From Buttiauxella agrestis (lineage in GTDB: Bacteria > Pseudomonadota > Gammaproteobacteria > Enterobacterales > Enterobacteriaceae): a DNA stretch of 64,000 nucleotides. Position 1 is the first letter of the stretch; the number at the start of each line of letters is the position of its first letter. The DNA lies in assembly GCF_900446255.1 (NCBI RefSeq), contig NZ_UIGI01000001.1:3374763-3438762 (forward strand), read 5' to 3'. A program made the position numbers and the translations under genes. Positions 10,706 to 31,023 of the stretch are shown here, piece by piece. The notes beneath the pieces are model-generated. The model was given only the letters and a program-made list of their open reading frames with translations, did no database searches and had not been told where the DNA came from.

Positions 10706-12292
10706 ATGAATTTAACGGTTAAAGAAACCCTGACGACCCGCGCAATTGCGCTCAATCCGTGGACTGGCTTTTATTTCCTTCAGTCTTTGCTGATTAACTT
10801 CGCTCTCGGTTATGAATTTAGCATTCTGTATGCGGTGGCTTTTAGCTGCGTATTGCTGCTGCTTTGGCGCAGCGCACCTAAATTCCAGAAGGGTTTGCTG
10901 GCAATTTGTAGTTTGATAGCCGCGATGTATTTCCCGTTTGGTCAGGCCTACGGTTCGCCCAACTTTAATACCTTGCTCGCCCTGCATTCGACCAACTTCG
11001 AAGAATCCACGGAATTAATGACCATCTTCCCGTGGTACAGCTATTTGGTGTCGGTATTTATTCTGGCGCTTGGCGTTATTGCCGTGCGTCGTAAAGTCGC
11101 GCCGAAGAAAAGAAACTGGTGTCATTTCGACAGTTTATGCCTGGTTGTCAGCGTGGTTTGTTTCTTTGTGGCTCCGGTGCAAAACCTGGCTTACGGTGGC
11201 GTATTTAAATTCAAAGATTCCGGTTATCCGGTGTTTCGCTTTGTCAAAGATGTGGTGGTCAATAACCAGGAAGTCATCGACGAGCAAACGCGGATGCAGG
11301 CCTTCGCTCAGATGAAGGACACCTGGAATGTGCTGGCAGTAAAACCTAAATATCACACTTATGTGGTGGTGATTGGTGAGAGCGCACGGCGTGATGCTCT
11401 TGGCGCTTTCGGTGGTCACTGGGATAACACCCCATTCGCCAGCCAGGTCAATGGCAACTTGTTTATGGATTACGTCGCCGCCAGTGGTTCAACGCAGAAA
11501 TCATTGGGGATGACGCTCAACCGCGTTATTGACGGCAAACCGCAATATCAGGATAGCATTATCACCCTCGCCAACCGCGCTGGTTTCCAGACATGGTGGT
11601 TCTCAAACCAGGGGCAAATCGGTGAATACGATACCGCAATTGCCAGCATCGCCAAGCGTGCGGATGAAGTGCATTTTTTGAAAAATGGTGATTTTGAAGC
11701 GGATAAAAATACTCGTGACGAAGCATTATTAAAGATGACCGCGCAGGTGTTTGCCACCCAGCACACTACCCCGCAATTAATTGTGCTGCATTTGATGGGT
11801 TCGCATCCACAGGCCTGCGACCGGACTCAGGGCAAATACAAAGATTTTGTACAGTCGAAAGAGACATCTTGTTATCTGTATACCATGACGCAGACCGACG
11901 ACTTGCTCAAACAACTCTATCAGCAACTGAAAAATACCGGTGACAGTTTCTCGATGGTTTATTTTTCAGACCACGGGCTGGCGTTCAAAGAACGTGGCAC
12001 CGATGTGCAATATCTGGCACATGATGACGAGTTCCAGCAAAACTTCCAGGTGCCGTTTATGGTGCTTTCAAGCGATGATACTGCGCATCGTCAGATTAAA
12101 GCCCGCCGTTCAGCCAATGATTTCCTGAACTTCTTCTCAGCGTGGACCGGGATTAAAACCAAAGAGTTAACACCGAAATACAAGTTCATCTCTGAGCAAA
12201 AAGCGGGGCCAATCTATATCACCAACTTTAAGCTCAAGAAGGTGGACTATACTCATTTGCAGACGGATGTGTTTGAAACGCAAACGCGTTAA
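10706..12292 (+). CDS. opgE: Phosphoethanolamine transferase OpgE (YbiP)
   Basis: Inner-membrane alkaline-phosphatase-superfamily enzyme (528 aa) that moves phosphoethanolamine from phosphatidylethanolamine onto osmoregulated periplasmic glucans; it was formerly called YbiP. The N-terminal third has about five transmembrane helices, and the periplasmic catalytic domain begins near residue 215. Visible metal and catalytic motifs are VVIGESARRDALG, ASGSTQKSLG (the Thr is the predicted nucleophile), LHLMGSHPQAC and FSDHGLAFKERG. The length and sequence match E. coli YbiP throughout. Start is the ATG at 10706. A strong terminator follows. Confidence 0.9.
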   Translation: MNLTVKETLTTRAIALNPWTGFYFLQSLLINFALGYEFSILYAVAFSCVLLLLWRSAPKFQKGLLAICSLIAAMYFPFGQAYGSPNFNTLLALHSTNFEESTELMTIFPWYSYLVSVFILALGVIAVRRKVAPKKRNWCHFDSLCLVVSVVCFFVAPVQNLAYGGVFKFKDSGYPVFRFVKDVVVNNQEVIDEQTRMQAFAQMKDTWNVLAVKPKYHTYVVVIGESARRDALGAFGGHWDNTPFASQVNGNLFMDYVAASGSTQKSLGMTLNRVIDGKPQYQDSIITLANRAGFQTWWFSNQGQIGEYDTAIASIAKRADEVHFLKNGDFEADKNTRDEALLKMTAQVFATQHTTPQLIVLHLMGSHPQACDRTQGKYKDFVQSKETSCYLYTMTQTDDLLKQLYQQLKNTGDSFSMVYFSDHGLAFKERGTDVQYLAHDDEFQQNFQVPFMVLSSDDTAHRQIKARRSANDFLNFFSAWTGIKTKELTPKYKFISEQKAGPIYITNFKLKKVDYTHLQTDVFETQTR

Positions 12293-22214: not shown

Positions 22215-22511
22215 TAAGTTTAAGTGTTAATTAACACATTAATAAACAACCATACTAATTCCGCATTAAAACATCGGCATTTCCTTGTATTCATCGCTTT
22301 AATCCGAAAATTAATCACTCTCGCAACAAAAATTGCATTTATTAATAAACCCGGAAAGGTGAGCAAGGGCACAAAAAAGATCTAAACCAATCCCATTAAA
22401 TTAAAAGTGTGACCTCGACACACCCTGGTTATCGGACAAATACAATAAGCTGTCATACAGCAATAGAAATCTCTCATCCTCACTTAATATTTTATGCAGG
22501 GAGCATTATTT
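22215..22511. promoter_or_regulatory. AT-rich control region of the TRAP operon
   Basis: About 300 AT-rich bases upstream of dctP with no supported gene. At 22407-22423 there is a small inverted repeat GTGTG-N7-CACAC that could be an operator (GntR-like or degenerate CRP-like). I cannot assign the regulator, and no dedicated regulatory gene adjoins the operon. Confidence 0.4.
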
Positions 22512-23498
22512 ATGAAATTTTTAACTCTACCTCGCCAATTACTCTGTGCCTCGCTAATGACTTTATGTGCCACTGGCGCAAATGCGGCAGATAAAATCAC
22601 CCTAAAACTGGCGCATAATCTGGAGCGCAGCCATGTTGTGCATCTGGCATTTGAAGAATTGGCCAAAGAGGTACAACAACTTTCAGACGGTAATATGCGT
22701 ATTCGCATTTACCCTAGCAGCCAAATGGGCAGCGCGCGCGAAACACTGGAGCTTTTGCAAAATGGTGCGCTGGATATGACGAAAGGTTCGGCCAGTGATT
22801 TGGAATCTTTTGACAATACTTACGCTATCTATAATTTGCCGTATTTATTTAAAGACCAGCAGCATTTTAATCGCGTGGTGTTTGGTGAAGTCGGCAAAGA
22901 AATTATGGAATCAACGAAAGATAAAGGGTTCTTTGGTATTTCCGCCTATGTTGCCGGCACCCGTAGTTTCTATGCTAAAAAACCGATTACCAAACCAGAA
23001 GATTTAAAAGGTCTTAAAATTCGTGTCCAGGCAAGCCCTACAACATTAAAAATGGTTGAATTAATGGGCGGCTCACCTACCCCTATTTCATTCGGTGAAG
23101 TGTATACCGCGATGCAACAAGGCGTGGTTGATGGTGCAGAAAATAACGTGCCGTCATGGGTTCAGACTCGTCATATCGAAATCGCTAAAGTTTTCTCGGA
23201 AGATGAACATACTTCCATTCCTGACTTCCTCGTTATCTCCACGAAAACCTGGCAGAAGCTATCACCTGAACAGCAGCAAATCCTGATGAAAGCGGCGAAA
23301 AACTCCGAAGCGTATCAACAAAAGCTTTGGGAGAAAGTCGATGCTGATTCACGTGCTCAGGCTAAAGCCATGGGCGCGACTATCCTCAGCGTAGATAAAG
23401 CCCCATTCCGCGCCGCAGTAAAACCGCTGTATGACGACTTCGCCAAAGATCCAAAACAAGCCGCACTGCTGGCTAAATTCGAAGCCGCTGCCGAGTGA
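22512..23498 (+). CDS. dctP: TRAP transporter substrate-binding protein (DctP family)
   Basis: Periplasmic receptor of a tripartite ATP-independent transporter, 328 aa with a signal peptide (residues 1-26, cleavage after ANA). The mature part begins ADKITLKLAHNLERSHVVH. The family arginine that pairs with a substrate carboxylate is in LKGLKIRVQASPTT, and the GGSPTPISFGEVYTAMQQGVVDGAENN motif is intact. Substrates of this subfamily are sugar acids, C4-dicarboxylates and related carboxylates; I cannot choose. The start is the ATG at 22512 with a GGGAG box; an ATG at 22494 lacks one. It leads dctQ and dctM, separated from them by a REP-like hairpin. Confidence 0.88.
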   Translation: MKFLTLPRQLLCASLMTLCATGANAADKITLKLAHNLERSHVVHLAFEELAKEVQQLSDGNMRIRIYPSSQMGSARETLELLQNGALDMTKGSASDLESFDNTYAIYNLPYLFKDQQHFNRVVFGEVGKEIMESTKDKGFFGISAYVAGTRSFYAKKPITKPEDLKGLKIRVQASPTTLKMVELMGGSPTPISFGEVYTAMQQGVVDGAENNVPSWVQTRHIEIAKVFSEDEHTSIPDFLVISTKTWQKLSPEQQQILMKAAKNSEAYQQKLWEKVDADSRAQAKAMGATILSVDKAPFRAAVKPLYDDFAKDPKQAALLAKFEAAAE

Positions 23499-23511
23499 TT
23501 TTAAGGTTTTG

Positions 23512-23538
23512 TTGGTCGGGTGACGCTTACCCGACCAG
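23512..23538. repeat. REP-like hairpin inside the TRAP operon
   Basis: TTGGTCGGGTGACGC and TTACCCGACCA form a near-perfect palindrome. It resembles the REP-type element at 40474 (GTCGGATAAGCG...GTCATCCGAC). It lies between dctP and dctQ, where it could protect the dctP message from 3' decay. Confidence 0.65.
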
Positions 23539-23579
23539 CTAAAACGCGTGTCATCAATATTATTTCCAGGTATGCAAAC

Positions 23580-24077
23580 ATGATACTTAAGCCCATAAAG
23601 CTTGCGGTAGACCGGACTATTGCCACTTTTTCTGTACTGGTGATGGTCGCTCTGGTTGTCTGCGTGGTGTGGCAGGTTTTCAGCCGCTACGTCCTCAACC
23701 AACCCAGTACTCTCACCGATGAACTGGCACGTTTTCTGATGATCTGGGTGGGTCTGCTGGGCGCATCTTATACCGTTGGCGCACAACGCCACCTTTCCAT
23801 CGATTTCCTCTCGATGATGCTGCCAGATAATAAAAAACCGCTGCTTAACATCGTGATTAACGCGCTGATATTACTGTTTTCATCCACGGTTATTGTCAAC
23901 GGCGGCCTGAAGCTGATTGAAAAAACATTAGCCACCTCGCAGCTCTCAGCGGCGTTACAAATCCCGATGGGTTATGTCTACATTGTGCTGCCATTAAGCG
24001 GGGCAATTATGATGTTTTACTCGCTCTATTTTATCCTGACCGACGCTCACACTCTGGTCAGCAAGGAAGGGAAATAA
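23580..24077 (+). CDS. dctQ: TRAP transporter small permease (DctQ family)
   Basis: Small membrane subunit of the TRAP transporter, 165 aa with four predicted transmembrane helices. Conserved family positions include the FSRYVLNQPSTLTDELARFLMIWVGLLGASY segment and the QIPMGYVYIVLPLSG segment near the C terminus. It forms a complex with DctM for sodium-driven carboxylate import. The start is the ATG at 23580 (MILKPIKLAVDRT), which has a CCAGG box; the upstream extension covers the REP hairpin. The TAA overlaps the dctM ATG. Confidence 0.85.
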   Translation: MILKPIKLAVDRTIATFSVLVMVALVVCVVWQVFSRYVLNQPSTLTDELARFLMIWVGLLGASYTVGAQRHLSIDFLSMMLPDNKKPLLNIVINALILLFSSTVIVNGGLKLIEKTLATSQLSAALQIPMGYVYIVLPLSGAIMMFYSLYFILTDAHTLVSKEGK

Positions 24078-25378
24078 TGGAAACTTATATCGCCCTCACC
24101 TTATTTGGTGCGTTCTTCGTTCTGGTGTTTATCGGGGTGCCTATTTCGTTTGCGATTGGGATTGCCACCGTTTCCTCTATGTTGCTGATGTTCCCATGGG
24201 ACGTGGCGGTTATCACTGTTTCGCAGCGTCTCGCCAATGGCCTGGATAACTTTGCGCTACTGGCGATCCCGTTCTTTATTTTTGCCGGAACACTGATGAA
24301 CAGCGGCGGAATAGCCATCCGCTTAATTAATCTTGCACAAATTATGGTTGGCCGTATTCCCGGTTCTCTTGGCCATGTCAACGTGCTGGCGAATATGATG
24401 TTTGGCTCCATCTCCGGTTCGGCTGTTGCCGCTGCCGCAGCCGTAGGGGGAACACTTTCCCCGATTCAAAACAAAGAAGGCTATGACCCGGCGTTTTCAA
24501 CGGCGGTCAACGTTTCATCGTGCATTACAGGGTTGCTGATTCCACCTTCTAACGTGCTGATTGTGTTCTCGCTGACGGCGGGTGGCGTATCGGTGGCATC
24601 GTTATTTATGGCCGGTTACTTGCCGGGCATCTTAATGGGCCTGTCAATCATGCTGGTGTGCTGGATTATCTCCCGGCGCCGCGGCTATCCGGTTTCCGCA
24701 CGTCCAACCTGCGCTCAAGCAGCAAAAGCGTTCCTCGACGCGTTGCCAAGCCTGTTACTGGTGATTATCGTCATGGGCGGGATTCTGGGCGGCGTATTCA
24801 CCGCAACGGAAGCCTCAGCCATCGCGGTGGTTTACACCTTCGTCCTTTCGGTGCTTATCTATCGCGAAGTGAAATGGCGTGATTTACCAAAGCTCATCCT
24901 TGATTCGGTGGTGACAACCTCGATTGTTCTGCTGCTCATTGGCTTCTCAGTTGGCATGTCCTGGGCCATGACCAACGCGGATATTCCCTACATGATTAGC
25001 GATGCGCTGATGGGTGTCTCGGATAACCCGCTGGTGATTCTGTTGCTTATCAACATCGTGCTGCTCATTGTCGGCATCTTTATGGATATGACGCCAGCGG
25101 TGCTTATCTTTACGCCAATCTTCCTGCCTATTGCGCAAGATTTGGGGATGGATCCGGTTCACTTCGGCATCATGATGGTCGCTAACTTGTGCGTCGGCTT
25201 GCTGACTCCTCCGGTTGGCAGCGCACTGTTTGTCGGCTGTTCCATCACGGGCGTTAAAATTCAGAATCTGATCAAACCGTTGCTGCCCTTCTATGCCGCG
25301 CTGTTTGTCTCACTGATGATGATTACCTACATTCCTGAGATTTCCCTGTTTATTCCTCGGCTGTTGGGACTGATGTAA
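24077..25378 (+). CDS. dctM: TRAP transporter large permease (DctM family)
   Basis: Large permease and transport channel of the TRAP system, 433 aa, about twelve transmembrane segments, ion transporter superfamily. Recognisable motifs are IGVPISFAIG, the GSISGSAVAAAAAVGGTLSP hairpin, IPPSNVLIVF and NLCVGLLTPPVGSALFV. It is translationally coupled to dctQ by an overlapping start. A terminator follows, so the next PTS operon is separate. Confidence 0.9.
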   Translation: METYIALTLFGAFFVLVFIGVPISFAIGIATVSSMLLMFPWDVAVITVSQRLANGLDNFALLAIPFFIFAGTLMNSGGIAIRLINLAQIMVGRIPGSLGHVNVLANMMFGSISGSAVAAAAAVGGTLSPIQNKEGYDPAFSTAVNVSSCITGLLIPPSNVLIVFSLTAGGVSVASLFMAGYLPGILMGLSIMLVCWIISRRRGYPVSARPTCAQAAKAFLDALPSLLLVIIVMGGILGGVFTATEASAIAVVYTFVLSVLIYREVKWRDLPKLILDSVVTTSIVLLLIGFSVGMSWAMTNADIPYMISDALMGVSDNPLVILLLINIVLLIVGIFMDMTPAVLIFTPIFLPIAQDLGMDPVHFGIMMVANLCVGLLTPPVGSALFVGCSITGVKIQNLIKPLLPFYAALFVSLMMITYIPEISLFIPRLLGLM

Positions 25379-25416: not shown

Positions 25417-25463
25417 CTTGTTGATTTATTATAAGCAATCACTTGATACTTTTATTAACCATC

Positions 25464-25506
25464 TGTGAATTAACTCACTTTATTCGCCGCTAACAATGTC
25501 TACTGT
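25464..25506 (+). promoter_or_regulatory. CRP site and -10 of the PTS/asparaginase operon
   Basis: TGTGA-ATTAAC-TCACT (25464-25479) matches nine of ten bases of the CRP core TGTGA-N6-TCACA. A TACTGT hexamer at 25501-25506 is placed so that the site would be centred about 41 bases before the start of transcription, the class II position. This predicts catabolite-sensitive expression. Confidence 0.65.
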
Positions 25507-25512
25507 ATGCAG

Positions 25513-25532
25513 CACAAGAATTGTCTCTTGTG
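25513..25532. promoter_or_regulatory. Operator-like inverted repeat at the predicted +1
   Basis: CACAAGA-ATTGTC-TCTTGTG, a perfect 7-bp inverted repeat just downstream of the proposed -10. A repressor bound here would block initiation. Which protein binds it is unknown; the convergent HTH protein at 29581-30402 is a candidate. Confidence 0.5.
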
Positions 25533-25553: not shown

Positions 25554-26861
25554 ATGAAAAACCTGATGGCCGCAATAGAAGCAAAGCTGATGCCCCTTGC
25601 CGGAAGAATGGCGCAACAACGCCACCTCGGGGCCATTCGCGATGCGTATATCTCGTTTATGCCTTTTATTATTGTCGGTTCAATTCTGCTGGTTATCTCC
25701 TCTTTCCCAAGCACTGCCTATCAACAGTTTATGGCGTCGATTTTTGGTGAAGGTTGGTCTGCAACTATCGAAATCCCGTTTAATGCCATCTTCTCGACCA
25801 TGGCGGTGTTCATTAGTTTCCTGGTCGCTTATCGTCTTGCAGAGCGTTATGACATCGACAAAATGTCCGCCGGGATTTTGTCTCTCTCCTGCTTCCTGAT
25901 TCTCACCCCCTTCGCTAAAACCCAGGAAATTGGCAACCTTATTCCGATGGAGTGGTTGGGTTCAAAGGGGTTGTTTGTCGCGATGCTCGGTGCGATTGCC
26001 AGCACTGAATTATTTGCCTGGATGCTAAGCCGCAACTGGGTGATCCGTATGCCGGATGGCGTGCCACCTGCGGTACAAAAATCCTTCGCGGCTTTGATTC
26101 CATCACTGCTGATTCTGGTGATTGCGCTCGCGATTCGCGTGCTGTTCGCCCGCACGGATTACCACACTATTCACCAGTTTGTTTACGAAGTGCTGGCTAC
26201 GCCAATTCGCCACTTCGGGACTTCCTATGTTGGCGCGTTGTTTACGTGCTTTAGCATTACCAGCCTGTGGTCGGTCGGGATTAACTCAGGCTCGATGGTC
26301 AACGGCATCCTGCGTCCATTCTGGATGGAAAACCAAATGGAGAACCTGACCGCAACACAGGCAGGATTGCTGCCTCCGCATGTTGTCACCGAACAGTTCT
26401 ACGACATGATTTGGATGGGCGGCGCGGGAGCCACCTTGTCTCTGGTGATTGCTATGCTGCTGTTTGCCCGCAGCCAGCATATTAAGAACGTTTCGCGTCT
26501 GGCTGCAGGTTCTTCCATCTTCAACATTAACGAGCCGGTGCTGTTTGGCCTGCCGGTCATCATGAACCCAATAATGCTTATCCCATTCAACCTGGTCCCG
26601 CTGGTGCTGGTGACGGTGCAATACATCACCATGTCGATAGGTTGGGTCGCCACCACCACTGGGGTCTATATCCCGTGGACGCTGCCGCCAGTATTAAGCG
26701 GGTTTATCGTTACCGGGCATCTCAGCGGCGCTGTAATTCAGCTTATCAATCTGTTGATTGGCGCCATCATCTACCTGCCGTTCCTTAAAGTCGTGGACAA
26801 GCAATACCGGGCGAATGAAACCCCGGAAATTTCAGCCACCACTAAACCCGCCACGGAGTAA
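25554..26861 (+). CDS. PTS EIIC, lactose/cellobiose/diacetylchitobiose family
   Basis: Membrane permease component of a sugar phosphotransferase system, 435 aa. It has eight to ten transmembrane helices and the family hallmark IFNINEPVLFGLPVIMNPIMLIPF, plus GGAGATLSLVIAM. It takes up and phosphorylates a sugar as it enters the cell, receiving phosphate from an EIIB of the Lac/Chb type. That EIIB lies at the far end of this operon. The start is the ATG at 25554 behind CGGAGCGG; an in-frame TTG at 25521 overlaps the operator. The next gene starts 8 bases after its stop. Cargo is not known; see the operon-level interpretation under the asparaginase. Confidence 0.88.
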   Translation: MKNLMAAIEAKLMPLAGRMAQQRHLGAIRDAYISFMPFIIVGSILLVISSFPSTAYQQFMASIFGEGWSATIEIPFNAIFSTMAVFISFLVAYRLAERYDIDKMSAGILSLSCFLILTPFAKTQEIGNLIPMEWLGSKGLFVAMLGAIASTELFAWMLSRNWVIRMPDGVPPAVQKSFAALIPSLLILVIALAIRVLFARTDYHTIHQFVYEVLATPIRHFGTSYVGALFTCFSITSLWSVGINSGSMVNGILRPFWMENQMENLTATQAGLLPPHVVTEQFYDMIWMGGAGATLSLVIAMLLFARSQHIKNVSRLAAGSSIFNINEPVLFGLPVIMNPIMLIPFNLVPLVLVTVQYITMSIGWVATTTGVYIPWTLPPVLSGFIVTGHLSGAVIQLINLLIGAIIYLPFLKVVDKQYRANETPEISATTKPATE

Positions 26862-26869
26862 GTAAAAAC

Positions 26870-27838
26870 ATGACGTTATCGAAAAACTGGGGCGTGATAG
26901 CGACCTGGCGTATGGCCTGGGAAGGGGTCAGTGAAGCCGCGCAGTTATTGCAAAGGAACAACGACGCCAGTGGTGCTGCGGTTCGCGCAGTCACCTGTGT
27001 AGAAGATTATCCATTTTATAAATCAGTTGGTTACGGCGGCTTGCCTAACGAACAAGGTGTGGTTGAACTGGACGCTGCGTTTATGGACGGTTCAACGCTC
27101 GCCATAGGCGCGGTTGCCAGTATTCGCGATATCGCTAACCCGATTCTGGTGGCGCAAGCCTTAAGCCGCGAGCGCTTCAACAGTTTTATGGTCGGCGAAG
27201 GCGCACAAACCTGGGCGCTCGCGCAAGGTTTTGAGCGCAAAAACATGCTGACCGATCGCGCCCATCAGCATTATCTCAAGCGTAAACGTGAAACGTTGGA
27301 TCGCGGCCTTAGCCCGTACACCGGGCACGATACCGTTGGCGTGATCACCCTCGATCAGAATCAACAGATGTGCGTCGCCACCTCCACCAGCGGCTTGTTT
27401 ATGAAGCGCCCTGGGCGCGTGGGCGACTCGCCGGTATCGGGTTCCGGTTTTTATGCCGACAGCCAGATTGGTGCCGCCACCGCCACCGGCCTTGGCGAAG
27501 ACTTGATGAAAGGATGCATCAGCTACGAAATCGTCAGCCGCATGGGGCGCGGAATGTCACCACAACAGGCGGCTGAATCAGCGGTTTACGACCTCGAAAG
27601 CCAATTGATTGCCCGCTATGGTCGCGCCGGTGATTTGTCGGTGGTGTGTATGAATAACCGCGGTGAATACGGTGCAGCCACGACCATTGATAACTTCTCG
27701 TTTTCAGTCGCCACGGCAGCGCAAACGCCAGCGGTATTTTTGACCACCCGCGAAGGAAAACACACCCTGATTCGCCCGGCAGACCAGGCGTGGCTTGATG
27801 CCTATATCGAACGTATTACCGCCGAGGTGATCGTATGA
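26870..27838 (+). CDS. Glycosylasparaginase-type Ntn hydrolase (family T2)
   Basis: Predicted N4-(beta-N-acetylglucosaminyl)-L-asparaginase-like enzyme, 322 aa. It is an Ntn hydrolase that cuts itself to expose a catalytic threonine. The predicted cleavage is D154/T155 in GHDTVGVI, identical in pattern to the HDT site of human and flavobacterial aspartylglucosaminidase. The asparagine-binding Arg183 and Asp186 (in GRVGDSP) and the oxyanion-region ATGLGED are conserved, and the alpha chain has VGYGGLPNEQGVVELDAAFMDG. These favour glycosylasparaginase over the IaaA isoaspartyl type. There is no signal peptide, so it acts in the cytoplasm, unlike the exported flavobacterial enzyme. Placed between PTS genes, it would release aspartate from an imported phosphorylated glycosyl-asparagine. 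This substrate is inferred. The stop overlaps the next start (ATGA). Confidence 0.88.
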   Translation: MTLSKNWGVIATWRMAWEGVSEAAQLLQRNNDASGAAVRAVTCVEDYPFYKSVGYGGLPNEQGVVELDAAFMDGSTLAIGAVASIRDIANPILVAQALSRERFNSFMVGEGAQTWALAQGFERKNMLTDRAHQHYLKRKRETLDRGLSPYTGHDTVGVITLDQNQQMCVATSTSGLFMKRPGRVGDSPVSGSGFYADSQIGAATATGLGEDLMKGCISYEIVSRMGRGMSPQQAAESAVYDLESQLIARYGRAGDLSVVCMNNRGEYGAATTIDNFSFSVATAAQTPAVFLTTREGKHTLIRPADQAWLDAYIERITAEVIV

Positions 27839-29304
27839 AATGCCAGTTAACCACCCTTACGCAATGCCCGGCAGATGCGCATTTAATACTGTGGAAAGCT
27901 CACGCCAACGCGTGGCCGCAAACACTGCGCCCGCTGCTGGATGAAATGGCGCTTTCCAGTGAATCGCAAACCACCACTTTCGGTTTAAGCAGCAAATGCC
28001 TGCAACTAACCCTTTTATCTTCGGCCGACATTGAGCGTCCTGAAGCGTTGCGCCAGTTAACAGAATATCTGAATAGCGTTTTGCCAGGCCCGCTTTCACA
28101 CCCTGTCGCCGTCGATATCTCAGGTTTTGACCTGGCAAACCGTGTCGTTTTTGCACGCCTGCGCACCCTCCTGGTGGCAGTGATGAACCGTTTCTATCAG
28201 TTGCCGCAGTTGGGATATCGCGCCCAGCAAGCGCAAAGTCACGGGCAACTGCTATTGCTGGTGGCAGAACACAATCCGCAATCGTCAGACCTGGCTGCGC
28301 AAGCGCAGGCAGTGGCTCAAGGGATGCTGCTTTCGCGCAAACTGGCCGACACTCCAGCAAATGACTGCCGCCCGCATGATGTGGCCCAACAAGCTGAAAG
28401 CTGGGCGCGCGAGCATCCGCAAACGCACTGTGAAATCCTTGATGAAAACGCCATTCGCGAGCAGGGTTTAGGTTGTCTTGATGCCACAGGAAAAGGCAGC
28501 GACAACCCGCCCCGGCTGGTGACGCTACGCTGGCAAGGTGGCGCTGAAAACGCACCGTATTACGCGTTTGTCGGCAAAGGCATTACCTTCGATACCGGCG
28601 GGATGTGGCTGAAAGAAGGCGAAGGAATGCGCACCATGAAATACGATATGTGTGGTGCTGCCGTGGTGTTCGGGCTGATGGAAATCGTCAAAACGCTGCA
28701 ACTTCCGCTTAATGTTGTCGCTGTGATGGCGCTGGCCGAAAACATGCCTGGCGTTAACGCCATGCTGCCGGGTGATGTCGTGAAATCGCACGCCGGTCAT
28801 AGCGTCGAAATTATAAATACCGATGCCGAAGGTCGCCTGGTTTTGGCGGATGCGCTGAGTTACGCCGCCACGCGCTTTAATCCGGCAGCGTTAATTGATG
28901 TCGCCACCCTGACCGGAGCGGTAGTCAAAGCCCTGGGGTATGACATCTCCGGGTTGATGAGTAATGATTCCCCCCTTAGCCGCCAATTGCAGCAGGCAGC
29001 CGATTTAACCCAGGACCGAATCTGGCCGCTGCCGCTCGACGAAAGCTTTGATTCGCAAGTCAAAAGCCATATTGCCGACCTCACGAATACACCGCCCAAT
29101 AACGCGGCCATCGCGGTATCCGCCGCCCAATTCTTGAGTAAGTTTTGCCACCAGTCGCCGTGGGCGCATTTAGATGTGAGCGGCACCGCGTTGAGCCGGG
29201 GTAAATTCACCCAGGCCAGCGGCCGCCCTGCTCTGTTACTGACGCAATTCTTACTCGACATCTGCAAAGGAAAGACAAATGAAAAAGATTCTACTGGTAT
29301 GTGA
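27835..29304 (+). CDS. M17 family leucyl aminopeptidase
   Basis: Dizinc (or dimanganese) aminopeptidase of the PepA family, 489 aa, cytoplasmic and expected to be hexameric. Metal and catalytic residues are visible: Lys248 and Asp253 in GKGITFDTGG, Asp271-region in MKYDMCGAA, and the signature N328-T-D-A-E-G-R-L335. It removes N-terminal residues from peptides. The N-terminal domain is divergent from PepA and PepB, so this is a paralogue with its own role. It overlaps the upstream asparaginase by 4 bases and the downstream EIIB by 26 bases, which indicates tight translational coupling. The operon context suggests trimming of imported peptides or glycopeptides. Confidence 0.88.
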   Translation: MKCQLTTLTQCPADAHLILWKAHANAWPQTLRPLLDEMALSSESQTTTFGLSSKCLQLTLLSSADIERPEALRQLTEYLNSVLPGPLSHPVAVDISGFDLANRVVFARLRTLLVAVMNRFYQLPQLGYRAQQAQSHGQLLLLVAEHNPQSSDLAAQAQAVAQGMLLSRKLADTPANDCRPHDVAQQAESWAREHPQTHCEILDENAIREQGLGCLDATGKGSDNPPRLVTLRWQGGAENAPYYAFVGKGITFDTGGMWLKEGEGMRTMKYDMCGAAVVFGLMEIVKTLQLPLNVVAVMALAENMPGVNAMLPGDVVKSHAGHSVEIINTDAEGRLVLADALSYAATRFNPAALIDVATLTGAVVKALGYDISGLMSNDSPLSRQLQQAADLTQDRIWPLPLDESFDSQVKSHIADLTNTPPNNAAIAVSAAQFLSKFCHQSPWAHLDVSGTALSRGKFTQASGRPALLLTQFLLDICKGKTNEKDSTGM

Positions 29305-29584
29305 TTTAGGCATGTCGACCAGTCTGGTCGTCAAACGTATGCAGGAAGCGGCGGTGAAACGCCAGCTTGAAGTCGAGATTCAGGCGAAAGGAATGAGCGA
29401 TTTTAAAAACGCGATTACTGCTTTTGACTGCGCACTGCTTGGCCCGCAAATCGCCTATAAGCTCGCAGACTGCAAACAGATTGCCGCGCCGCTTAATAAG
29501 CGTGTTGAAACCATAAATATGATGGATTACGGCATGGTAAACGGAGAGAAGATCCTCGACCACGCGTTGAGCCTGATCGACTAA
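29279..29584 (+). CDS. PTS EIIB, lactose/cellobiose family
   Basis: Cytoplasmic phosphoryl carrier of a Lac/Chb-type PTS, 101 aa. The phosphocysteine is Cys8 in KKILLVCDLGMSTSLVV; the usual sequence after Cys is S/A-A-G, here D-L-G. The P-loop GMSTS that holds the phosphate is intact. It hands phosphate to the EIIC encoded at 25554. No EIIA of this family is present in the window, so EIIA must come from elsewhere (for example a chb-type locus). It ends the operon and overlaps the convergent regulator's stop by 4 bases. Confidence 0.85.
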   Translation: MKKILLVCDLGMSTSLVVKRMQEAAVKRQLEVEIQAKGMSDFKNAITAFDCALLGPQIAYKLADCKQIAAPLNKRVETINMMDYGMVNGEKILDHALSLID

Positions 29585-30402
29585 ATATTCTTGAGCCACG
29601 CAGCCGGGGTCAGATTCTTGAGTCGGCTGCGGATAATTCGCTTGTTCAGCAATTCTTCAAACTCCAGCAAAACCGCGCCAAAACCCAGGCGCTTATCGTA
29701 ACGCTCACCGTTAAGTAACTGTTCCAGCGTTTGCGTCCACTCACCCTCTGCGGCTCTTTCCTGCCAGGCTTCTGGCTCGGCTTCATGCAAGGGAACCCCA
29801 AGTTGTTGCGCCAGTTGTTGAGTCAGCGTGGTAGAACAGGCCGTTAATGACCGCACTTTCAATAGCAAACCCTGCTGCAAAAAACCGACCAGAGCATCAA
29901 GCGATTGCTGTTCACCCCGCTCGCGAAGCGCCACGGCCAAAAAACCTGAAACCGGACAGCTAAATGCCAGCAACGAGCCGTGTTTATGGCTAATGCTTTC
30001 AGGAAGCGAAAACACATCAAGGCGCAAATGTCCGACCGGCTGCTTTAAATCAGGTTTAGCGAGCCGGGATTGCTGCCAGTTTTGCAATGTTCTGCTGACA
30101 CTGGCGCGCGAAATACCCTGCTGGACCAGCAATTGCGCGGCTTCCACAAGCTCATCCAGGGAAAGTGACAAACGCACGCGCAGAAAGACCAGCATCGCCT
30201 CCTGCTCATGGCTCAACGCACGATGAATGGTATTAGGCCGATGAGATTTGTCATAACAGTCATCTCGCTTACGCCAGCGCCTGACGGTATCCACAGAAAT
30301 ATTCAACTCCTCCGCCAGTTCACCGTCGGTTTTGTCAGAGCTTTGAATATATTTGCGGGTTCGCGGCGTGGTGGTGGCGTTGGAGTGCAGCTTGATCTCC
30401 AT
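29581..30402 (-). CDS. Domesticated IS481-type transposase-like HTH protein, putative regulator
   Basis: 273 aa. The N-terminal 110 residues align in pattern with IS481-family transposases: LHSNATTTPRTRKYIQSS opening, HTH with DGELAEELNISVDTVRRWRKR (about residues 26-46), DKSHRPNTIHRALSHEQE, then LSLDELVEAAQ...ISRASVSRTLQ. The rest follows the RNase H-like integrase domain, but the catalytic triad is broken. Asp129 (RLDVFSLP) remains; the position of the second Asp (family LTDNG) reads LTACS (Ala188); and the C-terminal Glu motif is not recognisable. The protein is shorter than active members and no terminal inverted repeats flank it. It is probably exapted as a DNA-binding regulator of the operon it faces; this is inference from layout. 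A TATAAT lies upstream. Confidence 0.72.
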   Translation of the reverse strand: MEIKLHSNATTTPRTRKYIQSSDKTDGELAEELNISVDTVRRWRKRDDCYDKSHRPNTIHRALSHEQEAMLVFLRVRLSLSLDELVEAAQLLVQQGISRASVSRTLQNWQQSRLAKPDLKQPVGHLRLDVFSLPESISHKHGSLLAFSCPVSGFLAVALRERGEQQSLDALVGFLQQGLLLKVRSLTACSTTLTQQLAQQLGVPLHEAEPEAWQERAAEGEWTQTLEQLLNGERYDKRLGFGAVLLEFEELLNKRIIRSRLKNLTPAAWLKNI

Positions 30403-30697: not shown

Positions 30698-30713
30698 TGT
30701 GACCATAATCACA
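30698..30713 (+). promoter_or_regulatory. CRP site upstream of ybiJ
   Basis: TGTGACCATAATCACA, a perfect match to TGTGA-N6-TCACA, ending 49 bases before the ybiJ ATG. Its closeness to the gene means either class II activation with a short leader or repression. Confidence 0.75.
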
Positions 30714-30762: not shown

Positions 30763-31023
30763 ATGAAAACCATCAAATATGCTGTAGCCGCCATCGCCCT
30801 GACCACTCTTTCTTTCGGCGCATTCGCTGCACAATCTATCAGCCCATCTGAAGCACAGAACATGAATAAAATCGGTGTGGTTTCGGCTGATAACGCAACG
30901 ACTCTGGATGGCCTGGAAGCGCAACTGGCTTCTAAAGCAGAACAAGCAGGCGCAAAAGCGTACTCAATTACTTCTGCTAACACCAACGGCAAAATGAGCG
31001 GTACTGCGGTTATCTATAAATAA
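30763..31023 (+). CDS. ybiJ: Periplasmic DUF1471 protein YbiJ
   Basis: Small secreted protein of the YhcN/BhsA (DUF1471) family, 86 aa, function unknown but linked in E. coli to stress. The signal peptide is residues 1-22 (cleavage after AFA), and mature protein starts AQSISPSEAQNMNKIGVVSADNATTLDGLEAQL. The ending GTAVIYK is a family hallmark. It matches E. coli YbiJ and precedes ybiB, as in E. coli apart from the missing ybiC. It shares the fold with McbA at 21886. The perfect CRP site upstream suggests control by carbon supply. Confidence 0.92.
   Translation: MKTIKYAVAAIALTTLSFGAFAAQSISPSEAQNMNKIGVVSADNATTLDGLEAQLASKAEQAGAKAYSITSANTNGKMSGTAVIYK

Follow-up and report, generated by a model that had tools for sequence, protein, structure and literature searches.

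The fructose-asparagine (fra) locus imports a sugar-asparagine conjugate, in that case an Amadori compound, with enzymes and a transporter other than those considered here. Nearer to the present subject is the ega locus of Enterococcus faecalis, on whose catabolic and transport genes the use of N-acetylglucosaminyl-asparagine (GlcNAc-Asn) by that species reportedly depends, to go by the title of Combret et al. 2024. As described, this locus encodes the glycosylasparaginase EgaG, EIIB and EIIC of a lactose/cellobiose phosphotransferase system (PTS) and a pseudogene of a putative oxidoreductase, with a GntR regulator and a dipeptidase under another promoter (PMC11160706). The alf-2 cluster of Lactobacillus casei BL23 has an MFS permease, a kinase and the peptidase PepV, and its glycosylasparaginase AsnA2 is an intracellular enzyme that in purified form is reported to cleave unphosphorylated GlcNAc-Asn (PMC6960285). 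Here we describe an operon in a 64,000-nucleotide stretch of the Buttiauxella agrestis genome (contig NZ_UIGI01000001.1; the whole stretch is called the window). With a probability of roughly 0.8, we read it as the Gram-negative equivalent of the enterococcal ega locus, an operon for the utilisation of glycosyl-asparagine in which PTS import with sugar phosphorylation, an M17 aminopeptidase and a cytosolic hydrolase would be controlled by CRP and a transposase-derived regulator. The original prediction made from this DNA held that no PTS pathway with such a layout had been described; because the ega locus, a Gram-positive counterpart in E. faecalis (PMC11160706), and AsnA2 are known, that claim of novelty falls and the claim of function gains support. 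The genes and sites concerned are as follows.

25554..26861, + strand: EIIC, lactose/cellobiose-family PTS permease (PF02378, PTS_EIIC, 8.7e-56)
26870..27838, + strand: cytosolic glycosylasparaginase-type Ntn hydrolase (PF01112, Asparaginase_2, 1.2e-61)
27835..29304, + strand: M17 aminopeptidase (PF00883, Peptidase_M17, 6.2e-111)
29279..29584, + strand: EIIB, lactose/cellobiose family, with Cys8 (PF02302, PTS_IIB, 4.7e-18)
29581..30402, - strand: operon-linked regulator with a helix-turn-helix region, a further helical region and a domain of RNase H-like (integrase/transposase) type whose acidic triad is broken
25437..25448, + strand: putative operator AATCACTTGATA with the core AATCANNTGANA, located upstream of the CRP site
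25464..25479, + strand: CRP-like site TGTGAATTAACTCACT, upstream of EIIC

Open reading frame (ORF) coordinates and Pfam families agree with the four tightly spaced genes first proposed: EIIC and the hydrolase are separated by 8 bp, the hydrolase and M17 genes overlap by 4 bp, and the M17 and EIIB genes by 26 bp, with a TTG at 25521, upstream of 25554, also open as a start for EIIC. The source is a Buttiauxella near B. agrestis ATCC 33320, in which the hydrolase has a 100% match; of the genomes compared, the nearest has 31% of the sampled 31-letter words in common with the window. The original prediction mentioned neither the regulator gene, which is convergent to the operon, nor the absence of an EIIA gene from the ORFs of the window operon. 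The ega locus shares with the window a same-clade glycosylasparaginase next to EIIB and EIIC of the Lac/cellobiose family, a peptidase and a regulator gene, but it differs in having an M20 dipeptidase in place of M17, a GntR regulator in place of a transposase-like one, another gene order and a GrdB-like gene. One stretch of E. faecalis-type DNA (L105) is laid out as ega is described, with M20, a GntR gene recognised by eye and a hydrolase 58% identical to that of the window; the 161.6-kb record that holds this ega-type locus (OR846587.1) is labelled Enterococcus phage and is most likely bacterial host DNA. Megaplasmids of E. raffinosus and E. gilvus carry the order GntR-M20-hydrolase-EIIB-EIIC-EIIA. 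The alf-2 cluster also combines an intracellular glycosylasparaginase with a peptidase gene, but where the window has a PTS it has an MFS permease, an alpha-fucosidase and the ROK kinase SugK.

A genome scan confirmed at least 493 relatives of the hydrolase, and our locus counts refer to the best 80 loci, which by record title comprise 60 gammaproteobacterial and 20 Bacillota loci (four of the latter, L052, L053, L054 and L059, from one Clostridium genome). EIIC adjoins the hydrolase in all 60 gammaproteobacterial loci. To go by the ORF calls, no more than 150 bp lie between the two in 59 of them, and in L020 the hydrolase start as called falls inside EIIC; because the two stand side by side throughout, the operon is a real unit beyond chance. 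M17 is present in 57, the loci without it being those of Vibrionaceae L012, L013 and L016, and M20 in none; EIIB occurs in 15, of which 10 also have EIIA. Co-occurrence of the four genes in other genomes is thus borne out for EIIC with the hydrolase and largely for M17, but the full set of four is not universal, EIIB being absent from 45 of the 60 loci and M17 from three. The 20 Bacillota loci, several of which stop at contig ends, contain EIIC in 14 cases, M20 in 18, M17 in none, CutC in 15 and a GrdB-like gene in 13, the last encoding a short putative oxidoreductase related to GrdB (NF041545 in L064, 8403-8921). Within Buttiauxella, the hydrolase, regulator and operator are together present in 7 of 12 genomes and together absent from the other 5. 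No Gram-negative glycosylasparaginase-PTS operon was found among the matches listed by searches of the open-licence PubMed Central literature, judged mostly by titles and the starts of abstracts, which is not proof of absence. As far as our searches reach, the new elements are M17 where Bacillota have M20, a locus without EIIA (in 45 of 60 cases without EIIB as well), and a transposase-like regulator with a broken triad; the regulator is the most unusual part of this M17-containing Gram-negative ega-type variant.

To judge from its sequence, the window hydrolase is of the glycosylasparaginase type and separate from the IaaA of its own genome. Compared with solved structures, it matches the glycosylasparaginase 1p4k of Elizabethkingia meningoseptica at E 6.8e-53 and the best isoaspartyl peptidase/asparaginase at 2e-32. 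The expected HDT cleavage site and the conserved Arg and Asp are all in place: H153-D154-T155 aligns with the catalytic Thr of 1p4k and is the predicted autocleavage site, and R183 and D186 are kept along with W13, S52, T173, T206 and G207. The W, S, T, R, D and T-G of this set are what we take to be the substrate-pocket residues of the E. meningoseptica enzyme. The window hydrolase has its family, the autocleavage Thr and the residues for substrate binding in common with that enzyme, but identity to it is 38%, and the window protein, whose N-terminus is MTLSKNWGVIATW, has no evident hydrophobic leader when read by eye, in keeping with the cytosolic location originally claimed. A like contrast between the E. 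meningoseptica enzyme and the signal-less AsnA2 is drawn in the L. casei report (PMC6960285). A tree of 44 sequences unites the hydrolases of the window, Clostridia, Lactobacillales and E. faecalis and the kinase-linked AsnA2-like enzymes in one group of 38 rows (support 100/99) that stands apart from the E. meningoseptica enzyme and from IaaA. Within that group, the 11 gammaproteobacterial rows cluster at 100/100, nested in a set of 18 rows that also includes clostridial ones (100/98). The deep placing is unsure, given a program warning that long branches of the outgroup come together.

The proposed pathway builds on observed gene content, conservation, enzyme subfamily and promoter sites, and on genes for NagA and EIIA that B. 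agrestis has at other places in its genome. Working with EIIB and with an EIIA encoded outside the operon, EIIC would import GlcNAc-Asn, or else a glycopeptide of very few residues, and phosphorylate its sugar; the M17 aminopeptidase would release the glycosylated asparagine from a di- or tripeptide; and the cytosolic hydrolase would split the sugar-asparagine amide bond to give aspartate and a glycosylamine, which would lose ammonia to yield GlcNAc 6-phosphate for NagA. CRP and the dedicated transposase-derived regulator, whose action and sign of regulation we infer, would control the operon. NagA scores above its cut-off in 10 of 10 genomes searched, two of which are apparently one assembly. 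Where the original prediction proposed import of a glyco-asparagine and its cleavage inside the cell, the coupling of a glycosylasparaginase-type hydrolase to a Lac-family PTS as a conserved unit stands, while phosphorylation on entry and glycopeptide trimming by M17 are steps that we infer.

Other explanations of the operon can be set against this one. It could serve to degrade asparagine or isoaspartyl (beta-aspartyl) peptides, in which case the PTS genes would be mere neighbours that import an unrelated sugar. The hydrolase does belong to the same Pfam family as IaaA, the operon does contain a peptidase, and the sole NCBIfam match of the hydrolase is beta-aspartyl-peptidase, but that match reaches 117 bits, far under the cut-off of 567, which places the protein outside the IaaA orthologue group, and the two lie on different branches of the tree. 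In addition, a separate IaaA-like gene, its product 37-40% identical to the window hydrolase, is present in all 12 Buttiauxella genomes searched, only 7 of which have the operon hydrolase; the genome's own IaaA-like protein lacks the W, S and H at the glycosylasparaginase positions, which all aligned PTS-linked members keep. Together with the link between EIIC and hydrolase in all 60 gammaproteobacterial loci, this makes an isoaspartyl function highly improbable. It is unlikely, though by no means far-fetched, that the imported substrate is not GlcNAc-Asn but a larger or different glyco-amino acid such as chitobiosyl-Asn, fucosylated GlcNAc-Asn or glucosyl-Asn. EIIC is of the cellobiose family, with 445 bits against TIGR00359 (cut-off 434), 231 bits against the diacetylchitobiose EIIC model (cut-off 760) and 3qnq as its solved relative (E 9.6e-114), and a gene like that of chitin disaccharide deacetylase (ChbG) lies near 5 of the 20 Bacillota loci and a GH4-type gene near 4. 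L. casei is reported to use the fucosylated form, and its regulator mutant did not grow on GlcNAc-Asn itself (PMC6960285). Set against this, the ORFs of the window operon include no glycosidase, fucosidase or deacetylase gene, and the published ega title names GlcNAc-Asn.

How the sugar enters is a further point at which the readings part. Where EIIB and EIIA are absent, EIIC could be a facilitator, with uptake proceeding without phosphorylation and a housekeeping kinase acting on the released GlcNAc. The absence of EIIB from three quarters of the gammaproteobacterial loci and the presence of EIIA in only 10 of the 60 fit this idea, as does a weak ROK-kinase match at least 4.4 kb beyond the M17 gene in 11 of 60. 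The window, however, has the parts of a Lac-family PTS other than EIIA, namely EIIC and EIIB domains, the candidate phosphorylation residue Cys8 of EIIB and the NxNEP motif of EIIC, and the 15 loci that retain EIIB, 10 of them with EIIA too, point the same way. No ROK kinase gene was found inside the gammaproteobacterial operons, and a pair of EIIB and EIIA genes lies near rpoC in all five genomes examined that have no or only a weak operon EIIB (G003, G004, G005, G009, G010). We therefore regard uptake by a facilitator as improbable. EIIA genes occur in all 10 genomes searched (three outside the operon in B. agrestis), and in G006 and G007 the operon's own is the sole one. The pair near rpoC is only a candidate for an in-trans partner of EIIB-less operons: it is found as well in all five operon-free Buttiauxella genomes, and it stands divergent to an EIIC and GH4 pair in two genomes (G003, G008). 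In Enterobacteriaceae it adjoins rpoC and often also thiH (L135 2475-3134, L174, L175, L176, L177, L178, L180), in several genomes without a neighbouring EIIC. The Cedecea colo locus L006 has a weak EIIB-like ORF (11468-11695, 57 bits), and the other Cedecea-type loci, L007-L011, have none, as if EIIB were being lost.

Several points weigh against import with phosphorylation as we propose it. The window operon has no gene for EIIA, and EIIB is missing as well from 45 of the 60 gammaproteobacterial loci. In L. casei, the peptidase PepV encoded in the cluster is reported to be dispensable for the glyco-amino acid (PMC6960285). Very close hydrolases are linked to a PTS in one locus (L157) and to a kinase in two others (L156, L159), and because these are so alike and AsnA2 acts on unphosphorylated GlcNAc-Asn, the enzyme itself gives no sign of meeting a 6-phosphate. 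Two candidate discriminators were rejected: position 180, Arg or Lys in PTS-linked hydrolases and Met in 1p4k, is also Lys in 5 of 6 kinase-linked hydrolases, which speaks against a 6-phosphate contact, and Arg14 is kept in both kinds. In favour of our reading, EIIC is found in 8 of 19 loci of a single Bacillota family (in which 17 of 29 genomes were positive), a ROK kinase in 6, neither in 5 and both in none, as would be expected if either supplies the sugar phosphate. The hypergeometric value of 0.017 for this mutual exclusion is optimistic, since the genomes are not independent of one another by descent and contig ends truncate some of the stretches. As EIIC and the kinase never occur together, either route can supply GlcNAc 6-phosphate. 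The hydrolase may act before or after phosphorylation, and the function of its Gram-negative members is predicted.

For the peptidase, the motifs GKGITFDTGG, MKYDM and NTDAEGR, which we take to be the catalytic and metal-ligand motifs of M17, are kept. It is one of three M17 proteins of its genome, 39% and 38% identical to the other two in the nearest genome. Each of nine Gram-negative genomes searched (G001 and G002 apparently being one assembly) has three M17 genes, and in the Enterovibrio genome G006 the third lies outside the operon. That either of two unrelated enzymes, M17 or M20, occupies the peptidase slot argues for a peptidase being of importance in the pathway.

The regulator gene is present in 58 of the 60 gammaproteobacterial loci, and among 60 relatives a full-length copy is carried by the 8 that have the hydrolase and by no others. 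Its product has the helix-turn-helix and RNase H-like core fold of an IS21/IS481-like DDE transposase; the structure model (pLDDT 87.4) finds the IstA transposase 8b4h as its top Foldseek match (E 8.1e-7), and the score against the IS481 model is 47.5 bits, below the cut-off of 224. None of 31 regulator sequences is acidic at all three triad positions, as placed by strand order and not by superposition: the window regulator has D129, T187 and E249, and the other subgroup mostly K129, E187 and C249. In the Trabulsiella odontotermitis locus L072 (6763-7547), the regulator gene is split across two ORFs. The operator motif is exact in 40 and within one mismatch in 55 of the 58 regulator-bearing loci, compared with 9% of shuffles, a contrast that is optimistic because the shuffles, like those for CRP, preserve base composition only and the motif was read from alignments of 27 of the same 58 loci. 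It is exact in 0 of 20 loci without the regulator, mostly those of Bacillota. A more independent check is the distribution of AATCANNTGATACTT in Buttiauxella, where it occurs in all 7 operon-bearing and 0 of 5 operon-free genomes, with 9 matches in total and 1 for the reversed pattern. Upstream of the regulator gene itself, the convergent group has an exact operator in 0 of 15 cases and one with a single mismatch in 4 of 15, so autoregulation there is not supported. A CRP-like site with at most one mismatch lies upstream of EIIC in 47 of the 58 loci versus 0.8% of shuffles; in the window, 4 matches against 1.7 expected are reached by 8 of 100 shuffles, so the single site is unremarkable alone and counts through its conservation only. 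On these grounds we lean, with some reserve, towards a DDE transposase domesticated in Gammaproteobacteria as a catalytically dead, dedicated transcription factor of the glyco-asparagine PTS operon, which would bind AATCANNTGANA just upstream of the CRP site and move between genomes with operon and operator. The open-licence PubMed Central literature searched, judged by titles and the starts of abstracts, held no bacterial operon regulator derived from a transposase, which is not proof of absence.

Other features of the window and its relatives can be added. A perfect CRP-like site, TGTGACCATAATCACA, lies at 30698-30713, upstream of a small ORF (30763-31023). The upstream TRAP genes (22494-25378) were dropped as part of the operon, as they are not adjacent in the Cedecea locus L011. 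CutC is encoded inside 15 of the 20 Bacillota hydrolase loci (L032, L033, L047, L059, L062, L064, L066, L070, L073, L074, L077, L078 and others) and nearby in only two of the 60 gammaproteobacterial ones (L014, L017). It occurs in 21 of 199 genomes of a Bacillota sample, 19 times above the cut-off; among 19 CutC places examined, 4 are beside ega-type genes and some others, by eye, beside genes that look like NagA or a ROK kinase. As a member of the Gram-negative pathway CutC was rejected: it is present in 10 of 10 genomes, but E. coli has it too, without a DNA match to the hydrolase (none by megablast with the window operon or by 11-base words with the E. asburiae hydrolase gene). The copper sensitivity of cutC mutants is wholly due to loss of the small RNA MicL, according to PMC6538781, and CutC may thus be an amino-sugar or glycosylamine enzyme.

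With this operon, the use of glycoprotein stubs (GlcNAc-Asn) through a PTS would reach beyond enterococci into Enterobacterales, Vibrionaceae and Pasteurellaceae. In Bacillota, members of the poorly understood CutC family are encoded next to this pathway time and again. Operon and regulator together offer a compact case of a regulator that putatively derives from a transposase and has a predicted operator found once or twice in a genome.

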